DNA of 64,000 nucleotides from Cystobasidiopsis lactophilus (Eukaryota; Basidiomycota; Agaricostilbomycetes; Agaricostilbales; Chionosphaeraceae), in contig BCIO01000005.1 of NCBI GenBank assembly GCA_001599975.1, positions 1,860,001-1,924,000 of the forward strand. Reading direction: 5' to 3'. Position 1 is the stretch's first letter. Each line of letters opens with the position of its first letter. The notes below the pieces were generated by a model, which saw nothing but the letters and a program-made list of their open reading frames with translations, was not told the DNA's origin and did not search any database. Shown one piece after another: positions 50,791-64,000 of this stretch. Made by a program: the position numbers and the translations under genes.

Positions 50791-50969
50791 TGTGAATATA
50801 GATTGACCTGAGATGATGCGGGAGATAGGGCCAGTTGAATGGAATGCCAGAAGTAAGCGAGCGATGGGCCAGCGTCAGCGGTTGCTCGAGTTCAAGGAGC
50901 TGCTTCGGTCCACCAACCGCGCCCGCGTCCTCCTCTCGGTCCGACTGCTGGGAGGCTTAGATTACAGAG

Positions 50970-53900
50970 ATGGCGCACGACGTGGCCAGGGCCAGGCTGC
51001 GGCACCTGATGGCCATCTACAGCCGCAACAGAAAGCGCTCCCAAGGGCTGATCATGCTCGCCATGAGCGCCTATGTGGCCTGGTCTACATTCCGGGGCCT
51101 GAACCCGCGCAAGAAGAAGGGCTCGCCAACTGCTCCAGCTGCCGACGAGCCGCTCATCTCCAGGTCCAAAGGCAAGAGCTCGTCGAGACGCAGAGGAGGT
51201 CCGCCGCCCTTTCTTTNCCCCGCCGTGCCCAAAGAGCGCACCGCTGACCCAATGGGCCACCTGCAGCTCGCGTCGAGGTGGACGCCGTCTTCTGGCAGCG
51301 CCTCGGCCGGATCTTGAAGATTGTGATCCCCGGATTGAAGTCCAAGGAGGCCTCCCTGCTCGTCCTCCACTCGGCCTTTCTCCTCTTCCGCACCCTGCTC
51401 AGTTTGTACGTCGCCGACTTGGACGGCCGCATCGTGTCTGCCCTTGTGCGCGGCCAAGCGTCGACCTTTCTGCTGAGGATCGCGACGTGGATGCTGGTCG
51501 CCGTGCCCGCCACATGTGCGTCGAGTTCTTACCTATAAATCGTGCCAGTTTGAGGATTGAGGTTGCGAGCACTGCACAGATTGCAACTCGATGCTGAGCT
51601 ACATGCAGTCAAAGCTCGCCATAGCCTACCGAACTCGCTTGACCTCTTACGTTCACGAGCAATACCTATCCGACAAGACGTTTTATGCCCTAGGGAATCT
51701 AGAGTGCGTCTTGAACCCTCCCTAGCTGTCATCAAAGCTACCGTTACTCAAGTGGTCCTGCACAGCGATCGGATCAAGAATGCAGACCAGCTCATCACCG
51801 CCGACATCAGCAAGTTTAGCACCTCGCTCGCCGAAATCTACTCCAACATTGCCAAGCCCACCTTGGACGTGATTCTTTACAACTATCAGCTTTCGAGGAA
51901 CGTGGGCGCCGAGGGCTTGTTGGCTTTGGTGATCATGGTCCAAGCAAGCGCCGGACTCCGTGCGTTGCTGGTCCCTAGCATAAGATTTGTTCTTATTTGA
52001 TGTCTTTTGCCCGCTGCACAGTGAGACTGCTGACCCCGCCTTTCGGGCGGTACGCTGCCGAAGAGCAGCGCCTAGAGGGCGAATTCCGCTTCGCCCATTC
52101 AAGACTGATAGAGTGTGCCGAAGAAAGTACGCGGCTCTTCTGCCACAGTGCAAAGCATTGTCTGATGCAGCGACCCCTACAGTTGCACTGTACTCGGGCC
52201 AAGAAGTAGAGAAGAACGTGATTGAGCGCAGCTACTTCAGCTTGATCAAGCATGTCAACCGGATTTTCCGGATGCGTCTCTTACATGGCATTGCAGAAGA
52301 TGGCATTATCAAGGTCGGTCTTACTTTCTCATGTTGGCTTCTGTCCGAATTCTGAATGTGATGCTGTCCCTCGACCTTCAGTGGGTTTGGGGCTCCATGG
52401 GGGTAAGTCTTCGCATGGCAAGCCCTTCACGGACTTATCCTGAAGATATACTCATACAGCTGTGCATTTGCGCCATTCCGGTCTTCTTCAAAATCCCAGG
52501 CGTTACGGCCAACGACTTCGGCGCGCGCACCGAAGGCTTCATCACCAACCGGCGCCTGCTCCTCTCCAGCTCGGATGCCTTTGGACGAGTCATGCTTTCT
52601 TACAAAGAGATCGCCGAGCTGGCGGGCTACACCTTGCGGGTGTCGGAGCTGTTGGACACCATGCAAGAGGTCAAAGCCGGCCGCTACGAGAAGAAGATCC
52701 TTTCCACCGACAACGTGGCCGAGCAAGAGCGCATCTTGCATGGTCGAGGAAGGATCGTGGGCTCGGACGACGATAGCATCTCGTTCGAGAATGTGCCCAT
52801 CGTCTCTCCGACTTCCGAAGTGCTCATCAAGGGAATGAGCTTCCACATCAAGCCCGGCGTATGCGCTTCTTTTCTTATACGGTTGTTTGACCGGCATTCT
52901 GATGAAGCGCGGCTTTATAGGACCACCTTTTAGTTGTCGGTCCGAATGGCTGCGGTAAATCCAGCTTGTTTAGAATTTTGGGAGGACTCTGGCCTGTCTA
53001 TGGTGTGTCTTTCCACTGTCGCAAGCATGACTGATACAGAACGAGCCTGATCCACGAAACTCACAGGTGGCCTGGTTCGAAAACCGCCAGCGTCCGACTT
53101 TTGTTATATTCCCCAGCGGCCGTACCTCTCGCTTGGCACACTGCGTGACCAGATCATCTATCCAAATACCCGAGAAGAAATGGAGCAGCGTGAGTAGAGC
53201 CTCACTACGAGCACGGATGGGCGCGTTCTGAAATCATCGCAGGTGGCACCACGGACGCTGACCTATTCAAGATTCTGGAGGTCCTTCAGATCTCGCACAT
53301 TGTTGAGAGAGAAGGCGGGTGGGATGCCCAAAGAGAGTGGCGTGACGCATTGTCAGGTTGGTGTCTTCTTGTCGAAGAGCCTGAAAGCAAATCTCAAGCA
53401 TCAACCAGGCGGCGACAAACAGCGCATTGCGATGGCTCGGTTGTTCTACCACACTCCAAAGGTACGTTTTGATCCGCGATTGGTTAGCCCAGTCTCAGGA
53501 GATCAATCGTAGTATGCCATTCTGGATGAGTGCACCAGCGCGGTCACTTTGGTAGGACGACCTTATTTCGCCGTCAGATAGAGTCACTAATCTCTCCAAC
53601 AGGAGGTCGAGCGGGTTATGTACAATCACGCCATTGAGCTTGGCATCACTCTGCTCACGTATGCCCAGCCTTCTCGCTGTTGCATTCGAGTGCTGACACT
53701 CTGCGCAGTGTGAGCCATCGTCCTTCGCTCTGGCAATATCACACGCACATCTTGCAGTGTAAGTCCTATTCCGAAGTCATCAGACTCACTCGGCTGGTGC
53801 CTTACCGCCCCTTGACAGACGATGGGCAAGGAGGTTACGCTTTCGCCAAGCTAGACCCTGAGAAGAGGCTTGCACTTCAAGAGGAGAAGCAAGACCTCGA

Positions 53901-55880: not shown

Positions 55881-56547
55881 TCACGTGGTGGCGGCAAAGT
55901 TGTGGAAGAAAGCGGCGTCGTTCGCATCGAAAGGGTGCAGGGAGAGCTTGCCGCCATTCTGCGACACGGCTTTACCAGACTGGCTTTCTTTGATCGAGCA
56001 CTTCTTGGCGATGAATTGGCCGGTGGCATAAGGAGTATCGGGCGAAGCACACCAGTCGCAGTCCAGCACAAAGGTGCTCGCTCTGTCAACTTTTCAATAC
56101 GAGGAAGTATAGGGAGAACAGGGAGTCGAACACGTACGGAGATCCCCAAGTGAAAGTGTCGACGGCCAAAGTGTTCGACTTGACAGATTTGACGGCTCCT
56201 AAACTGTTGTCCGAGACATCGCCAAGCCTATAACCTCTCAATCAATGGTATTCACACGATCTTGACACAAGCGGGGTTTACTTCAAGATGTAATCGTTCA
56301 CAGCCGAGCCAGTGAACTCGAAGCGGAAGGGAGAAAAGGTCACGGCGCTGCCGGCGTTGATCGAGTCGCCGACTTGAGGAGGGTTGTGTTGTGCAGCCCA
56401 CAAGAGACCCTCCGGACCTCCGTTGGGCACAGAGCCAATCTGAACGTTGGTCCCTTGGAAATTGGGGCGGCAGGTGGACCTTTTGATCAGGGGAGAGGCA
56501 GACGCCACAGCGACCACGGCCAAGAGAGAGACAAAGGAGGTGTACAT
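55881..56547 (-). CDS. Small secreted protein, unrecognised family
   Basis: The start MYTSFVSLLAVVAVASASPLIKR is a signal peptide with a Kex2-like KR. The mature part runs STCRPNFQGTNVQIGSVPNGG, WAAQHNPPQVGDSINAG, FRFEFTGSAVNDYILKLGDV, then SVKSNTLAVDTFTWGSP, and FVLDCDWCASPDTPYATGQF, ending DAAFFHNFAATT. Splices after ILK (donor GTAAAC) and after WGSP (donor GTACGT) hold the frame. About 180 residues and four to six cysteines. A TATA box lies on the minus strand at 56617-56623. I do not recognise the family; size and secretion fit an extracellular effector or surface protein. Confidence 0.7.
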
Positions 56548-57363
56548 GGTCGTTGTCTAGCTTCAAGCGGCGCGAATCGGTTGCTGGTTGCCAAAGAGCA
56601 GGTGGCAAGACAGCGCTTTTATAGTCCTTCCTCGAGGCTGTGAAGTTGAACCCTTTTCCGATAGGCTGAGCAGGCAAGGTCATTTCCACGAAGACACAGC
56701 AGGAAGGACTTAAGGAGGCGGTACGGAGATCCCGAGCAATGAAGCCAGCACATCGGGTCCCGCCTTCCATCTTACCTGCCCTGCCACCTTGATGTACAAG
56801 GTTGCGGGGTCTGCGTGAACAAAAGAAGGAAGAGGGCAGCTGATTTCATGCATCGTGGATTTGGTAGCGAGGGCTGTTCGGTCCAGCCGGAGAGCCGGTG
56901 TTCTGCTGTTCACTTGTCCAGAGGCTGTGTGTGAACGTCTCGGTTGTCTTCTTCTGGGGATGCCCATGGGGTCGACGCTTCTTACACTAAAAGTGCTTAG
57001 GGGTTCAAATTAGGCCCAACAGCAGAGCAGAAGCCATTGAATATGCAAGGGCAGCAGAAATTCATGCAGACATCGCTCGGGGCCAAAGACGCAGAAATCG
57101 GTCTTCCCTTCTTCAGAGCAGTTTCTTAAGACATCAAACAACAGACAGAGCAAGCGGACGACAAGCGTGGGCTTGAGAATAGGATTCGACGAGCATAAGG
57201 GAGAGTTGAAATTCGGTTGAAGCGGTCAGTGAAATTTCAAGGGAAACTCAAGGCCTTTTCTAAAGGTACGCTACTTTTGTTAGGCACAACGACGCTACCA
57301 CAAGCCGGCGGCGAGGGCCAAAGTTGCTGTGGCGACTGCGCGCGAGAAAGCCTTTGCCAGGTC
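56548..57363. other. Intergenic between small secreted gene and U6
   Basis: About 800 bases between the divergent secreted-protein gene and the U6 gene. Apart from the TATA box at 56617-56623 I recognise nothing. No TATA box is visible 25-35 bases before U6; that stretch is GC-rich. Confidence 0.5.
56617..56623 (-). promoter_or_regulatory. TATA box of the small secreted protein gene
   Basis: TATAAAA on the minus strand, about 70 bases upstream of the ATG at 56547. Position and sequence fit a strong core promoter. Confidence 0.6.
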
Positions 57364-57388
57364 GTATCCCTTCGGGGATTACATACAT

Positions 57389-57420
<32 letters not shown>

Positions 57421-57488
57421 GGCCCCTGCACAAGGATGACACGCATGATCAGAGTGGATTCTCTTCGGAGAACAATTATTTTTTTTTT
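57364..57488 (+). ncRNA. U6 spliceosomal snRNA
   Basis: The invariant core is present: AAAATTGGAACGATACAGAG (ACAGAGA box, pairs with the 5' splice site), then AGATTAGCATGGCCCCTGC and ACAAGGATGACACGCA (catalytic AGC region and internal stem-loop). The 5' end forms a short hairpin, ATCCC-TTCG-GGGAT. After GACACGCA the sequence departs from the usual AAATTCGTGAAGCG and has instead a hairpin TTCTC-TTCG-GAGAA, then a T10 run at 57479-57488 that should stop RNA polymerase III. The mature 3' end is probably at the first few Ts. I see no intron. Start placed by comparison with the usual 27 bases before AAATTGG. Confidence 0.93.
57479..57488 (+). terminator. Pol III terminator of U6
   Basis: Ten consecutive Ts directly after the U6 3' hairpin, the standard termination signal of RNA polymerase III. 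Confidence 0.8.
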
Positions 57489-57957
57489 AGGGCTGGCGAC
57501 CAACTCTTCGACTTGTTCTCTTTAATCTTGGCCCTTGTTCATGCTGGTATGATTAAAATGCAAATGGACGGAGATGCGAGCACCAATCGCTGACCCTCGA
57601 TGCCCGAGCTGTGGCCCATCATGCACTCTCTCTTCCTCGCCGTCGGCCGCGTCCAAGGTCGATGCCACGCTCCATGATGGATGTGACTGCTTGTCCATGC
57701 TCTCGATGAAGAGAGACACATTTCTGTGCCTCCTCGGAGCAGAGAGCGCTGCCTCGCCGCTAGTCTGGTTTCTGCTCATGCCAGCTCACACGCCGCCACC
57801 CGGCCGCTCCCCAACTTTTTTTGCGTCGACGGCTGTACGCGAGCATGTGCGGGCTGACTGGTTCTGCATGCGCGCGGGTGCCATTTTGTGGGCTTCAAAA
57901 TTTTTTATGCCACAAAGTGGGCGCTGCTCTTGGCCCCCGCTTCGGACGCGCGACCGT
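57489..57957. other. Intergenic, U6 to left arm
   Basis: About 470 bases with no recognised gene. A weak B-box-like sequence (CTTCGACTTG) lies near 57506, where some fungal U6 genes keep a downstream promoter element; the match is poor. Confidence 0.35.
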
Positions 57958-58022
57958 GTGCTGGCTGCCAATCCCCCGAGCTGAATCCCGCGTCATGACA
58001 ATTTTTGGGGCAAGTCTGCGCC

Positions 58023-58029
58023 TATAAAA
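58023..58029 (+). promoter_or_regulatory. TATA box, left-arm secreted gene
   Basis: TATAAAA about 100 bases upstream of the ATG at 58125, preserved in the right arm and, in a diverged promoter, in the third paralog. Confidence 0.65.
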
Positions 58030-58124
58030 GCTGGCCTTCTGTCTCTTTCTTTCCTTCATCCCAAATCTCTCTTCATCAGCTCGCTACCGACTTTGCTTCC
58101 CACTCCAAATCGAAACCCCTCAGC

Positions 58125-58962
58125 ATGCTCTCCTACGTTTCCCTCGCTGCCTTGCTCGCCGGCCTGGCCTTCGCTGCTCCTACTTCCCAGTCTGTCGTCG
58201 TCAACGGCGTCGCGGCCACCCTCTCGGCGCCCACCGTCCAAGCAGAGGCGGCCATCTCGTGCGGCTCGGGCACCTACCTCGTTCGCTCTTCTCCCTATGG
58301 TCAGACCAGCACCTTGCTCATCCTCTTCTTGAATCAGACCTACAGCATCAAGACCGAGGGCTTCTCCGGCTCTCTGGCTCAAGCCCAGAGCGTGCTCGGC
58401 AACTGGGTGGTGAGTGGCGCCGGCTCTTTGCTTCCACCGCTTCATCAGCTCAACTTGCCTGTCCAGGCCACTGCTCCTGGCACCACCACCTACTCGAGCG
58501 GCTCCAACGCTGTGGGCGCCACCCGCATCTGGACCTCCACCGACTCGGCCTTGGGCGAGACCACTTCCAACACCGAGACCCTGTCGGCCATCATCCAGCC
58601 CACCTCTGGCAACAGCAACCTCGAGCTGAAGTGGTCGGCGGGTGACGAGAAGTTCAGCAACGGCCTCGAGCTCTGTGAGTTGTCCTTTCGCACCGCTGCA
58701 GCTTGCCCAAGTGCTCAATCTCAGGGTTCGCGCAGTCGAGTCCTGGTACGACTTGACCGTCTCTGGACCCAGCAACGGCCAGGTCTCTCTGCAGCTCTAC
58801 GTGAACACTTGTGAGCCCGTTTGCAGCTCTAGCGTTAGCTGGATTCTAAGAAGGCCTCGCGTTGCAGGCGCCTCCAACCAAAACCTGGCCTACCCGACCC
58901 TGGCCACCATCCTGCAAGACAGCATCTCGGCCTACATCTCGGACGTCACGTCGGTCCACTAA
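58125..58962 (+). CDS. Small secreted protein, family A, left-arm copy
   Basis: The start MLSYVSLAALLAGLAFAAP is a signal peptide. An intron (58281-58337, donor GTTCGC) joins SCGSGTYL to TYSIKTEGFSGSLAQAQSVLGNW; the same intron place is kept in the third paralog although its sequence differs, which supports it. Later parts: TTTYSSGSNAVGATRIWTST, ETLSAIIQPTSGNSNLEL, ESWYDLTVSGPSNGQVSLQL, YVNTCASNQNLAYPTLATIL, ending SAYISDVTSVH (TAA 58960-58962). The mature protein is about 170 residues with a few cysteines. I do not recognise the family. A nearly identical copy lies inverted at 62992-63829. Confidence 0.85.
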
Positions 58963-59168
58963 GGCCAGCGCGCTCCTCATGCTTGACGACCTGCTCACGA
59001 CGCCACCGCCACTCGCCGCCGCCAGCTCCTCTCCCTGTCGGCGGTGCTCCCCTACACTCACGTTCTTCTCTCGCTCCTCTTCTTCTTCTTCTTCTTCGTA
59101 GCCACGTTTTGTTACCCCTACGCATTGCATTGTTCACGCTCTATGATCATCCCTCTCCTCGCTTGGGC

Positions 59169-59883
59169 CAACCCTCTTGCATCTGAGTCGCTATGGCCCA
59201 TTTTGGCTCTCGATTTGGCTGTTAATCGACACACAAGTCATCCCACCTCCACCCAAAACAGAAAGATGAAGGAGCTCTGAGGCGGCCGGGCTTCGCCTCT
59301 TTCTCTCGCTCGGCGACTTCCTTGCTGCCCCATTCGCGTCTTAGGTGCTTAAACCATTGGTATACAGCACGCAATGACATGTGACTTGCTCCCAAGGCGT
59401 CTGGCGTGGCTCCGATTCTTCTCCGACCATTCGCGTTGCCAGCTGAACCTTCAACACAGATCTGGCTGTGCTATCGGTACCAAGTGTTTCGACGCCACCT
59501 TGCCCTTCGTGTCGTTGTGCTTGCCTCAAAACTTCGTGTGGGACCCCGTTCGTCACCCCGGCCGGCTCAAATCTCGGCTCCAGGATCCTCCAACTGTGTC
59601 TTCCGCCACCCCGAACCTCGAGTTTCTGGTGTGTGGGCTGTAACCGAGCATGTGCATTGCAACCTTCTCGCTTAACAGACATGCCCTGTACCCTTTCTTG
59701 TCATTGAAGAAGACAGTGTTCGGCGAAGTGGCGCTGCTGGCATCCTCCGCATTCTGGGTTGGTGTGACCATTCGGCCCCGCCCCAAAAGTCCACTATAAA
59801 AGCCACAGCAATGTTTCTTTCCCTCACCTCCATCGGATCCTCTCTGCGCACTCCCAAACAAAATCGTCCTCCCCAACTTCGCC
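59169..59883. other. Spacer segment upstream of the third paralog
   Basis: About 700 bases of unique sequence between the inner break of the left arm and the family B gene. A GC-box-like GGCCCCGCCCC lies near 59774, followed by a TATA box at 59795-59801. No gene seen. Confidence 0.5.
59795..59801 (+). promoter_or_regulatory. TATA box of the third paralog
   Basis: TATAAAA about 90 bases before the ATG at 59884, same layout as in the two arm copies. Confidence 0.6.
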
Positions 59884-60712
59884 ATGCTCCCATACGTTGC
59901 TCTTGCTGCCGCCCTTTCTGGCTTCGCCCTAGCTGCCCCGGCTCCCCAGACGGTCAACATCAACGGCATCTCCGCTACGATCTCGGCTCCCATCGACACG
60001 AAGGCGGCAGCCGCTTTCACTTGTGGCTCCGGCACCTACCTTGTTCGTTGCCTCTGTACTTCGCCCTACTTCTTGAGTGCAGAGCTAAAATCCTCGACTC
60101 AGACCTACAGCATCTTGACTGAAGCCTTTTCCGGCTCTTTGTCGCACGCTCAGTCCGTCTTGGGCAACTGGGTCGTGAGTCATGCTTCCATGGCCTTGCG
60201 GACGTGGCTCAACTTCTTCTGTTGCAGGCAACCGCTCCCGGCGCAACCACTTACCATAGCGGCTCGAATGGCGTTGGATCCAGCCGCATTTGGACCACGA
60301 CCGACACCTCTTTGGGCGAGACCACGCCCAACAGCGAGACTTTGACTGCCGTCATCCAGCCCACCTCTAGCAACACCAATCTCGAGCTCCAATACAGCTC
60401 TACCGACGAGAAGTACAGCAACGGTGGACTGGAGCTCTGTAGGTCGTCTTTTGGTCGCGAATCCGCCGCCCGCTCATTCTGGATGCAGTCCAATCTTGGC
60501 ACAGCCTTACCATTCAAGGCCCAAGCAGCGGAAAGGTTCAGCTACAGTACTACGTGAACACTTGCAAGTTGTTTTCTCTCCTTTTCAGTCGCTGCCACTG
60601 CTGATACCTTTTGTCACTCACAGGCGCCTCCGACCAGAACAAGGCCTACCCCGTCCTTGCCCAAATCCTCCAGGACGGCATCTCTGCCTGGATTGCCGAT
60701 GTTCAAAAGTAG
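59884..60712 (+). CDS. Small secreted protein, family member B (diverged paralog in the spacer)
   Basis: Signal peptide MLPYVALAAALSGFALAAP. The pattern matches the arm genes: FTCGSGTYL, intron 60043-60102 (donor GTTCGT), TYSILTEAFSGSLSHAQSVLGNW, then TTYHSGSNGVGSSRIWTTTD, ETLTAVIQPTSSNTNLELQY, GPSSGKVQLQYYVNTC, DQNKAYPVLAQILQDGISAWIADVQK (TAG 60710-60712). It is clearly diverged from the arm copies in both exons and introns, so it split off long before the inverted duplication arose. Four introns. Family not recognised. Confidence 0.83.
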
Positions 60713-60905
60713 CGTCTCCGACTAGGGCACTTCTACGGGTTTCCTCCCTTTTAGCAGCGACAGTCTTCACACCTTCTCTACTACGGACAATTTCACTTTC
60801 TCACTCTGTCGCATTGCATTTCAAACCGATATCAATTCTGATACTTTGATCTCCCGTGCTCGCTGTGTACATTCAGAGACCATGGTCGTCTCAGGCTCGC
60901 GAAAA

Positions 60906-62460
60906 CTAGAAGACAATCACTGCCTTGCCCTTGCGTTTAGGGTCGTGCGATGCCTCTACCGCTTTGTTGATGTCGTCCAGCTTGTATGTCGTGATGTGAG
61001 ACTGAGAGCAGGTTAATCTCAGCATAATATGAGCAATCCAGTCCAGGAGCCTCACCCGGATATTGTACTTGCTGCAGAGGTCGAATGCCTACCAGTCCGC
61101 GATTGGAGTCGGCAACCTCTAATGCGCAAGGAGACCTGAGCTCACTTCCTGGAGATCTCGGGCGTTGCCTAACAGGCTGCCCCGAATCTTGATGCCACGA
61201 AAGATCAAGTCCTTGTACTCGAAATGAACTCCGCCTTCCGGCTGGCCGAGCAGGACAAAGGTGCCATGGTTTGCTAGGAGGTCGACTGCATATTGAAAGC
61301 TGGGTGGCGCGTCCGTGGCTAGGATGACGCCGTCCAAGCCAGGAAAGTCTTTTGCTGGGTCCAATTTCTTGATTTCTTCGAGAGCTTGTTTGGCCTCGAT
61401 GTTGCTCTGAATCACCAGATCTGCTTTGATGTCGAGGCTGTTGACCAGATCGACAGGCTCCTTGCGAGAGTCGACCGCCACCACCCGATAGCCCTGCGGT
61501 CATTTCGATGAGACAGCAGCTGAGAGCTAGACATATCGGTGGCGCGTACCATGCTTTTGGCCATTTGGACTCCAAGCACGCCTAGTGCACCCAGTCCGAC
61601 AATGCCGACAAGCTAAAGCCTAATATCAATGCTGGAAACGAGCACGATCCATCGGGAACAGCTCACCTGGCCCTTTTTGAATCCAAGCGATTTTATGGCT
61701 GTGTAGATGGTGGTTCCGGCACAGCACAGCGGCGCTGCCTGTTTGCTGTCTGTCACTTGCTGATGCTTGATTTTGAGGGAGGCTTACCTGCTCGTATGGA
61801 AGACCGTCCGGAATCTTGGCAGCAGAGCGACTATCCACGACAGCATAGTCAGAAAAGAAGCCGTCCTTTGAAACACCAAAGTATCTGGAATGTCTGCGTG
61901 AGCCAAGATCAGTCAAACCTGCACAGACATACCCGGTCTGGTTGCGACAGTACTTGTTGTCGATCTGCTTGCACTCGGGGCACCTGGCAAGATCAAAGCT
62001 GTTAGTCGCCACTACCATGAGGGTTCAGAAGGTAACCCACGCAAAGCAGGTGCCAGCTTGACAGACTGCACCGATTCGATCCCCAACCTTGAACTGCCCA
62101 TTCTTCTCTGCGTCTGGCCCTATAAAAGGATCGATTAGAAGGCATAAAGTTGAATCGAGCTGTAACAAACCTAGAGCAACGACGTTTCCCGCAGGCTCGT
62201 GAGAACCGGTGATGGGAAGGTCAAAAGGAACAGGCCCGGTCCCGTCCGCCACCATAGCGTCCTGTACACCCATATCGATGAAAGAAAGACGATGAGTGAA
62301 GAGAGAATCAGCATACAGTGTGGCAATATCCAGCTGCCTTGGTTTCAATCAAGATCTCAAAGCCCTGTGGCTTTGGCACGGCAACATCTCTGATCTCATA
62401 GGGCTTCTTGAACTCGACAACTTGAGCAGCCCTCATTTTGGAGGGGATCGAAGCGGGCAT
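60906..62460 (-). CDS. Zinc-dependent alcohol dehydrogenase (MDR family)
   Basis: The start MPASIPSKMRAAQVVEFKKP leads to GFEILIETKAAGYCHT (catalytic zinc Cys), then GPVPFDLPITGSHEPAGNVV (zinc His/Glu), KVGDRIGAVCQAGTC, and RCPECKQIDNKYC (structural-zinc cysteines). The coenzyme domain holds LVGIVGLGALGVLGVQMAKSMGYRVVAVDS. Later are YAVDLLANHGTFVLLGQPEG and FRGIKIRGSLLGNARDLQE, ending near GKAVIVF (stop 60906-60908). About eight introns. The loop GSHEPAG departs from the usual GHEGAG. An upstream in-frame ATG (62733) would add a long basic leader; I prefer 62460 because the family starts here. Substrate unknown. It sits inside the spacer of the inverted duplication. Confidence 0.88.
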
Positions 62461-62788
62461 TTTGGGCAAGCAGGTGGCAGAGGCAACAGTTGGCGGGGGA
62501 GCTTCAAGAGACCGCCGAGCGGGATATTCGAATGCTAGGGGCGCTGTCAGGCTCTTGGTACTGTGCGCTGTCGAATAGAACTTTTGGACGAGCAAAGCGA
62601 GAAGCGCAAAGGTGATCGTGCGGGGCGAAGAGGTGCAACGCACGAGTGAGGTGAATCGGCGGAGTGGCAAGCGGTATCGCCGAGAAGGCCTCAGGTGGTG
62701 AGAGGGTGCGTGTAAAACACAGCTTGAAGGCATTCAAAGAACAGGAAACACGAAAGCTGGGATAGCTAAAGGGGGAGGCGCAACGATA
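62461..62788. other. Spacer upstream of the alcohol dehydrogenase
   Basis: About 330 bases between the dehydrogenase start and the inner break of the right arm. Its promoter probably lies here. No further gene seen. Confidence 0.45.
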
Positions 62789-62991
62789 GCCCAAGCGAGG
62801 AGAGGGATGATCATAGAGCGTGAACAATGCAATGCGTAGGGGTAACAAAACGTGGCTACGAAGAAGAAGAAGAAGAGGAGCGAGAGAAGAACGTGAGTGT
62901 AGGGGAGCACCGCCGACAGGGAGAGGAGCTGGCGGCGGCGAGTGGCGGTGGCGTCGTGAGCAGGTCGTCAAGCATGAGGAGCGCGCTGGCC

Positions 62992-63829
62992 TTAGTGGAC
63001 CGACGTGACGTCCGAGATGTAGGCCGAGATGCTGTCTTGCAGGATGGTGGCCAGGGTCGGGTAGGCCAGGTTTTGGTTGGAGGCGCCTGCAACGCGAGGC
63101 CTTCTTAGAATCCAGCTAACGCTAGAGCTGCAAACGGGCTCACAAGTGTTCACGTAGAGCTGCAGAGAGACCTGGCCGTTGCTGGGTCCAGAGACGGTCA
63201 AGTCGTACCAGGACTCGACTGCGCGAACCCTGAGATTGAGCACTTGGGCAAGCTGCAGCGGTGCGAAAGGACAACTCACAGAGCTCGAGGCCGTTGCTGA
63301 ACTTCTCGTCACCCGCCGACCACTTCAGCTCGAGGTTGCTGTTGCCAGAGGTGGGCTGGATGATGGCCGACAGGGTCTCGGTGTTGGAAGTGGTCTCGCC
63401 CAAGGCCGAGTCGGTGGAGGTCCAGATGCGGGTGGCGCCCACAGCGTTGGAGCCGCTCGAGTAGGTGGTGGTGCCAGGAGCAGTGGCCTGGACAGGCAAG
63501 TTGAGCTGATGAAGCGGTGGAAGCAAAGAGCCGGCGCCACTCACCACCCAGTTGCCGAGCACGCTCTGGGCTTGCGCCAGAGAGCCGGAGAAGCCCTCGG
63601 TCTTGATGCTGTAGGTCTGATTCAAGAAGAGGATGAGCAAGGTGCTGGTCTGACCATAGGGGGGAGAGCGAACGAGGTAGGTGCCCGAGCCGCACGAGAT
63701 GGCCGCCTCAGCTTGGACGGTGGGCGCCGAGAGGGTGGCCGCGACGCCGTTGACGACGACAGACTGGGAAGTAGGGGCAGCGAAGGCCAGGCCGGCGAAC
63801 AAGGCAGCGAGGGAAACGTAGGAGAGCAT
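62992..63829 (-). CDS. Small secreted protein, family A, right-arm copy
   Basis: Same length and exon structure as the gene at 58125-58962. The signal peptide reads MLSYVSLAALFAGLAFAAP, with Leu to Phe at residue 11. Other visible changes are silent or in the first intron (complement 63617-63673). Start at 63827-63829, stop at 62992-62994. TATA box on the minus strand at 63929-63935. Both copies look intact, so both may be expressed. Family not recognised. Confidence 0.85.
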
Positions 63830-63928
63830 GCTGGGGCGAGGGTTTCGGTTTGGAGTGGGAAGCAAAGCCGGTAGCGAGCTGATGAAGAGAGATTTGGGAT
63901 GAAGGAAAGAAAGAGACAGAAGGCCAGC

Positions 63929-63935
63929 TTTTATA
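63929..63935 (-). promoter_or_regulatory. TATA box, right-arm secreted gene
   Basis: TATAAAA on the minus strand, the mirror of 58023-58029, about 100 bases before the ATG at 63829. Confidence 0.65.
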
Positions 63936-64000
63936 GGCGCAGACTTGCCCCAAAAATTGTCATGACGCGGGATTCAGCTCGGGGGATTGGCAGCCAGCAC

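Follow-up and report, generated by a model that had tools for sequence, protein, structure and literature searches.

A palindrome in Cystobasidiopsis lactophilus carries a U6 small nuclear RNA gene in each arm and an uneven pattern of differences suggestive of gene conversion

When two nearly identical copies of a gene face each other across a short spacer, what was duplicated, and what has kept the copies alike? The question was addressed for a locus of Cystobasidiopsis lactophilus in a stretch of 64,000 nucleotides (contig BCIO01000005.1, here C5, positions 1860001-1924000), from an assembly of 22.1 Mb in 8 contigs representing a single genome. The whole stretch is termed the window, and positions without a contig name are window positions. 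A preliminary description had reported inverted arms of at least 1.2 kb, each with a copy of a secreted-protein gene (S1), and had proposed, as alternatives, that the arms are of very recent origin or that gene conversion holds them uniform. The inverted repeat was confirmed and is larger than first described. Each arm also contains a gene for the U6 spliceosomal small nuclear RNA (snRNA), and the differences between the arms are unevenly distributed.

Alignment of 57958-59168 with the reverse complement of 62789-64000 gave 98.7% identity over 1,215 columns, with 9 substitutions and 2 gap openings, in agreement with the near-identity first noted. Arm limits were then measured on the window plus the continuation of C5 past 64000 (blastn, own assembly), and the match extended to 64658; the right arm does run past the window, as had been proposed. 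The full arms are 1,870 bp each: the left arm occupies 57299-59168 (+ strand; aligned by blastn to the reverse-complemented right arm) and the right arm 62789-64658 (- strand; C5 1922789-1924658, locus L006 289-2158). The right arm is within the window at 62789-64000, its last 658 bp lie beyond the window end, and the left arm starts 659 bp ahead of the position first given. Identity between the arms is 1,854 of 1,874 columns (98.9%); they differ by 12 substitutions and by three indels (1, 4 and 3 bp). Near-identical inverted arms thus enclose a spacer of 3,620 bp (59169-62788), which is the layout of a palindrome. A self-comparison of 72.5 kb at E <= 1e-6 returned no match besides the arms and the pair formed by S1 and its spacer paralog S2, which excludes a chance origin of the repeat. 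No target-site duplication was evident by eye at the arms.

The U6 start of the arm lay outside the part delimited in the preliminary description; the inverted duplication of S1 stood, and the duplicated unit was revised from 1.2 kb to 1.87 kb, beginning with U6 and its promoter elements. At Rfam gathering thresholds one RNA gene was found in the window, U6 at 57364-57465 (+ strand, RF00026, 88.3 bits against a gathering score of 44, aligned to model positions 1-105). The right copy, at C5 1924492-1924593 (- strand, RF00026, 88.3 bits), is identical and lies 492 bp past the window end; both copies have the conserved sequence and structure of U6 RNA. A T run starts at 57479, downstream of the left U6, and in each arm S1 follows U6 in the same direction. 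A genome-wide U6 search, in which 47 of 943 first-look candidates were scored, gave four matches: the arm copies, each at 88.3 bits, and a pair on contig C1 that scored 64.0 and 48.3 bits. Among the candidates scored, the arm copies are the only two canonical U6 genes found, and the C1 pair is divergent and U6-like.

Upstream DNA was compared across nine snRNA genes (2 canonical U6, 2 U6-like, 2 U2, 2 U4 and 1 U5). Two putative promoter elements, as they stand at the left U6, were sought in the seven genes not identical to it and compared with 5,000 mononucleotide shuffles. The distal element, ACCACAAG (57297-57304, + strand, about -65), has the right-arm counterpart ACCACACAAG, and arm-to-arm homology stops within it. 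It is of the ACCACA type, stands near -64/-65 across the upstream DNA compared, and recurs within 5 bp of the same place in the seven genes with 1-4 mismatches of 8. The proximal element, AAAGTTGCTG (57320-57329, + strand, -42 relative to the left U6), resembles a proximal sequence element (PSE); AAAGTTGCTC is exact upstream of both U2 genes (-43 and -39) and has one mismatch in one U4 (-42). It is weak in the other U4, in U5 and in the weaker U6-like copy (4, 6 and 5 mismatches of 10), and U5 fits poorly at both elements, being also the worst at the distal one (4 mismatches). Summed over the seven genes, none of the 5,000 shuffles was as good, for either element. The U6 gene thus has a putative upstream promoter, with elements at -65 and -42 common to the U2 and U4 genes, and a T run as its presumed terminator. 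As both elements are kept in both arms and homology ends at the distal one, each arm seems to hold a full U6 transcription unit.

The left S1 copy (58125-58962, + strand, 201 aa) was modelled with five exons (58125-58280, 58338-58409, 58467-58674, 58736-58810 and 58868-58962) by comparison with S2, and tblastn was run exon by exon; the N-terminus, read by eye, is signal-peptide-like. The right copy (62992-63829, - strand) differs from it at 4 coding bases, with one residue changed, Leu11 to Phe, within the signal-peptide-like start. S1 is intact in both arms, and single-base differences at 58155, 58178, 58244 and 58379 distinguish its two copies.

Arm differences are concentrated in two places. 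Nine of the 12 substitutions, together with the 4-bp indel, fall in an island of 290 bp (58090-58379), and the other 3 substitutions are at the outer edge (57312-57335), flanking the PSE-like element. The stretches 57336-58089 (754 bp) and 58380-59168 (789 bp) have no substitutions, just poly-T and TTC-repeat indels. Two gaps as long as those observed arose in about 1 of 100,000 random placements of 12 substitutions, and 9 substitutions within 290 bp in 38 of 100,000; with indels included (15 events) the figures were 62 and 52 of 100,000, respectively, all of these statistics having been picked after the pattern was seen. Functional constraint was ruled out as the cause of arm identity, because introns 2-4 have no differences in 175 bp between the arms and are strongly different between S1 and S2 (75 of 153 aligned positions the same), and there are likewise no substitutions in the intergenic DNA between U6 and S1 as far as 58089. 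Introns are therefore as well kept as exons, as first noted, and the blocks of identity are independent of constraint.

This mosaic bears on how the arms came to be alike. A very recent inverted duplication without conversion, with the island due to chance or to a different allele recombined in at or after the duplication, is consistent with the 98.9% overall identity and with the intact genes of both arms, and the island would also result from a single recombination with an allele diverged by about 3% (9 of 290). Even placement of the 12 substitutions is nevertheless very unlikely, and the outer-edge cluster requires a second cause; we regard this origin as unlikely, while giving it appreciable weight. 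The mosaic is better accounted for by arm-to-arm gene conversion than by recent origin on its own, and of the two possibilities offered in the preliminary description, which was right to pose them, the clustered differences favour conversion.

S2 was also used to polarise the island, at 6 alignable sites, two of which (58290 and 58292) fall within intron 1, where alignment is poor. States unlike that of S2 are carried by the left arm alone at 58178, 58292 and 58379 and by the right arm alone at 58155 and 58290, which suggests that both arms mutated independently in the island. Agreement with S2 was found for the right arm at 3 sites, for the left arm at 2 and for neither at 1. Conversion of S1 from S2 was rejected, as the island states of neither arm lean towards S2.

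High arm-to-arm identity could also be produced by the assembly, if a read folded back on itself, or if a haplotype that had been collapsed or duplicated was placed twice. In the fold-back case the flank would reappear as its own mirror image, whereas here the spacer is 3.6 kb and the outer flanks of the two arms are not copies of one another. The right outer flank matched itself alone genome-wide; the left outer flank matched itself and five other places (55-95 bp, 79-86%), none of them the right arm. Apart from its own locus, the spacer matched nothing in the genome but S1 and, at 78%, a 65-bp stretch on C2. Since spacer and outer flanks are not mutual copies and the arms differ by 12 substitutions and 3 indels, an artefact is unlikely. 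Such an error would also leave inexplicable the other inverted snRNA pairs of the genome, at 73-87% identity, and its overall probability is judged to be very low.

The spacer contains S2 (59884-60712, + strand), the older paralog of S1 (67.7% over 715 columns; protein 69% identical in alignment), and a zinc-dependent alcohol dehydrogenase (ADH) gene (60906-62460, - strand), both of which the preliminary description had recognised. It had further raised head-on expression control, silencing by hairpin RNA and inversion of the spacer. Inversion is possible, as for any such repeat. That the repeat is a functional device, either an invertible spacer switch or a source of hairpin RNA silencing S1, is allowed by a geometry that permits inversion by crossover and by the convergence of the S1 copies. 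Inversion would, however, leave the U6 and S1 units intact and alter only the S2/ADH order, and a hairpin would require read-through of 3.6 kb across two converging genes. These two genes divide the S1 copies, which does not favour hairpin silencing or head-on control; the recognised spacer genes are S2 and ADH, no search aimed at a recombinase having been made. The layout of the locus gives no support to a switch or a hairpin, and we consider a device of this kind extremely improbable. A mobile element carrying the unit was likewise rejected, the arm DNA being present at these two places only, besides the S2 and U6-like matches, in genome-wide counts that are lower bounds.

The explanation that we think probable is that a unit of U6 and S1 was duplicated once in inverted orientation and homogenised by gene conversion, the pair being likeliest kept for the dosage or sequence of U6. 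The U6 gene, its promoter and the neighbouring S1 would have been copied in one event, most likely from left to right, into the place now occupied by the right arm, which has the ADH gene on one side and a DUF1168-domain gene (PF06658) on the other; this direction is suggested because the S1-S2 tandem stands on the left side. Conversion between the arms would since have erased differences elsewhere, so that one unconverted island remains in the 5' portion of S1, along with a few outer-edge differences. We infer that conversion occurred, and the mosaic supports it well. The cell would thereby gain two identical copies of its only canonical U6 gene, and U6 dosage and sequence would be the likeliest reason for the pair's persistence, with S1 mostly a passenger. 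Both the left-to-right direction and the maintenance of the pair by selection on U6 are likewise inferred. A supporting parallel is the inverted U6-like pair on C1, which is also patchy (96-100% over 300 bp, 60-68% in the worst 50-bp steps). Several points weigh on the other side. One genome was available, and the case for conversion depends on the pattern of 12 substitutions within it. Repeat arms can also be made uniform when a long-read assembly is polished. The U6 RNA is invariant between the arms and on its own is uninformative on selection, and S1, intact in both arms, may matter as much as U6.

The C1 genes lie 30 kb apart in opposite orientation, at C1:672671-672770 (+ strand; locus L009 1501-1600) and C1:643015-643123 (- strand; locus L010 1501-1609), within a common unit of 645 columns at 87% overall. 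Compared in 50-bp steps, the pair is 96-100% identical over 300 bp of the downstream part versus 60-82% in the U6 region. The 672-kb copy has the U6 core, promoter elements, a six-T run and a different yet paired 5' stem-loop, with compensating changes in the internal stem-loop seen by eye; it may be a second U6 that has diverged. In the 643-kb copy there is a 6-nt insert and no run of four or more T directly behind the RNA, and this copy resembles a pseudogene. On C3, two U2 genes (C3:809611-811070; locus L033 4611-4805 and 5827-6070; - and + strands; 68.7 and 80.6 bits) stand head to head, 1 kb apart, with inverted downstream homology over 361 columns at 73%. All three linked same-type snRNA pairs found (canonical U6, U6-like and U2) are thus inverted, which, for three pairs, may be accidental, orientation by itself having a probability of 1 in 8. 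The U4 genes, two in number, are unlinked; a single match was obtained for U5 and none for U1, such a miss being no proof of absence. It is conceivable, if rather doubtful, that the lineage recurrently carries spliceosomal RNA genes as inverted pairs (canonical U6 on C5, divergent U6 accompanied by an unknown small RNA on C1, U2 head to head on C3), with arm-to-arm conversion of the kind known from sex-chromosome palindromes keeping the essential U6 identical and the C1 pair having escaped in its U6 part, yielding a divergent U6.

Just downstream of the U6-like genes are two of the four members of a conserved sequence family (C1:672770-673230, + strand, L028; C1:642550-643013, - strand, L029); the remaining two are at C6:291796-292155 (+ strand, L030) and C5:1537567-1537773 (+ strand, L031). 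No Rfam match was obtained up to E 0.1 in the three loci tested (L009 on C1, L030 and L031). Members end in a strong hairpin and a T run, and snRNA-type elements were seen by eye upstream of some copies. Alifold gave 64 pairs, of which 8 show two-sided changes in one sequence or more, from an alignment in which one row starts late; because the covariation term was +0.25, covariation lends the family no net support.

S1 had no Pfam family match. In a profile search that scored 7,998 candidates and required shared 5-residue words, 5 database relatives were returned, two of them already in the profile and none with a listed Pfam domain. Within this genome, the further S1 paralogs are S2 and a set of C3 matches interpreted as a two-domain gene; a weak S1 match was also seen on C5 at 442.8 kb (E 6.8e-4). 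The gene density and the introns of 50-60 nt are fungus-like. Intron 1 is a multiple of three and stop-free in both S1 (58281-58337, 57 nt) and S2 (60043-60102, 60 nt), with agreement at 30 of 54 aligned positions; its retention in either gene would yield a longer in-frame protein. The ADH gene has several introns, and its ends were placed by eye from the translation; Pfam ADH_zinc_N matched the piece 61119-61484 (7.8e-13), and the ADH_N match on 61626-62018 did not reach its cut-off. The five matches of the left outer flank involve about 56280-56374 (3 on C5, 1 on C6 and 1 on C1, 79-86%), a 55-95-bp stretch that is either a short dispersed repeat or a shared domain. The sole N in the window is at 51217, within an open frame listed at 50813-51247.

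Genes for snRNAs are mostly discussed as single copies or tandem arrays, and human RNU2 undergoes concerted evolution. The RNU2 array, described as tandem (PMC3795722), likewise holds several copies of an essential snRNA gene, unlike the one inverted pair found here. Human Y palindrome P8 (VCY) is described with near-identical inverted arms, a 3.4 kb spacer and intrachromosomal gene conversion (PMC6790999); the present locus is like the mammalian Y palindromes of that account in its inverted, near-identical, gene-bearing arms and short spacer, and unlike P8 in its arm length (1.9 kb versus about 38 kb), in its fungal setting, in its U6 snRNA cargo and in that conversion is read here from sequence. 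For BMP8A/B, inverted linked duplicates, concerted evolution was shown by cross-species comparison (PMC2720389), and there, as here, some blocks in which introns are no less alike than exons alternate with diverged ones; the present evidence comes from one genome rather than from several species. Young duplicates of Caenorhabditis elegans are often adjacent and inverted, which suggests that inversion is part of the duplication event (PMC2728529); snRNA cargo, present here, is not described in the relevant passages of that report. No report of a U6 palindrome was found among the titles and abstract openings listed from the literature searched, most subscription journals being outside its coverage. 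On these comparisons, the structure would be of a known kind, a gene-bearing palindrome of linked duplicates under concerted evolution, with an unusual cargo.

The locus carries a warning, in that what looks like a recently duplicated gene for a secreted protein may owe its persistence to an unannotated small RNA gene alongside. With 15 differences between the arms, conversion tracts could be counted from strain to strain. Should the two canonical U6 genes share one self-correcting palindrome, the locus would offer a compact natural test of inverted duplication as a protection for an essential RNA gene.

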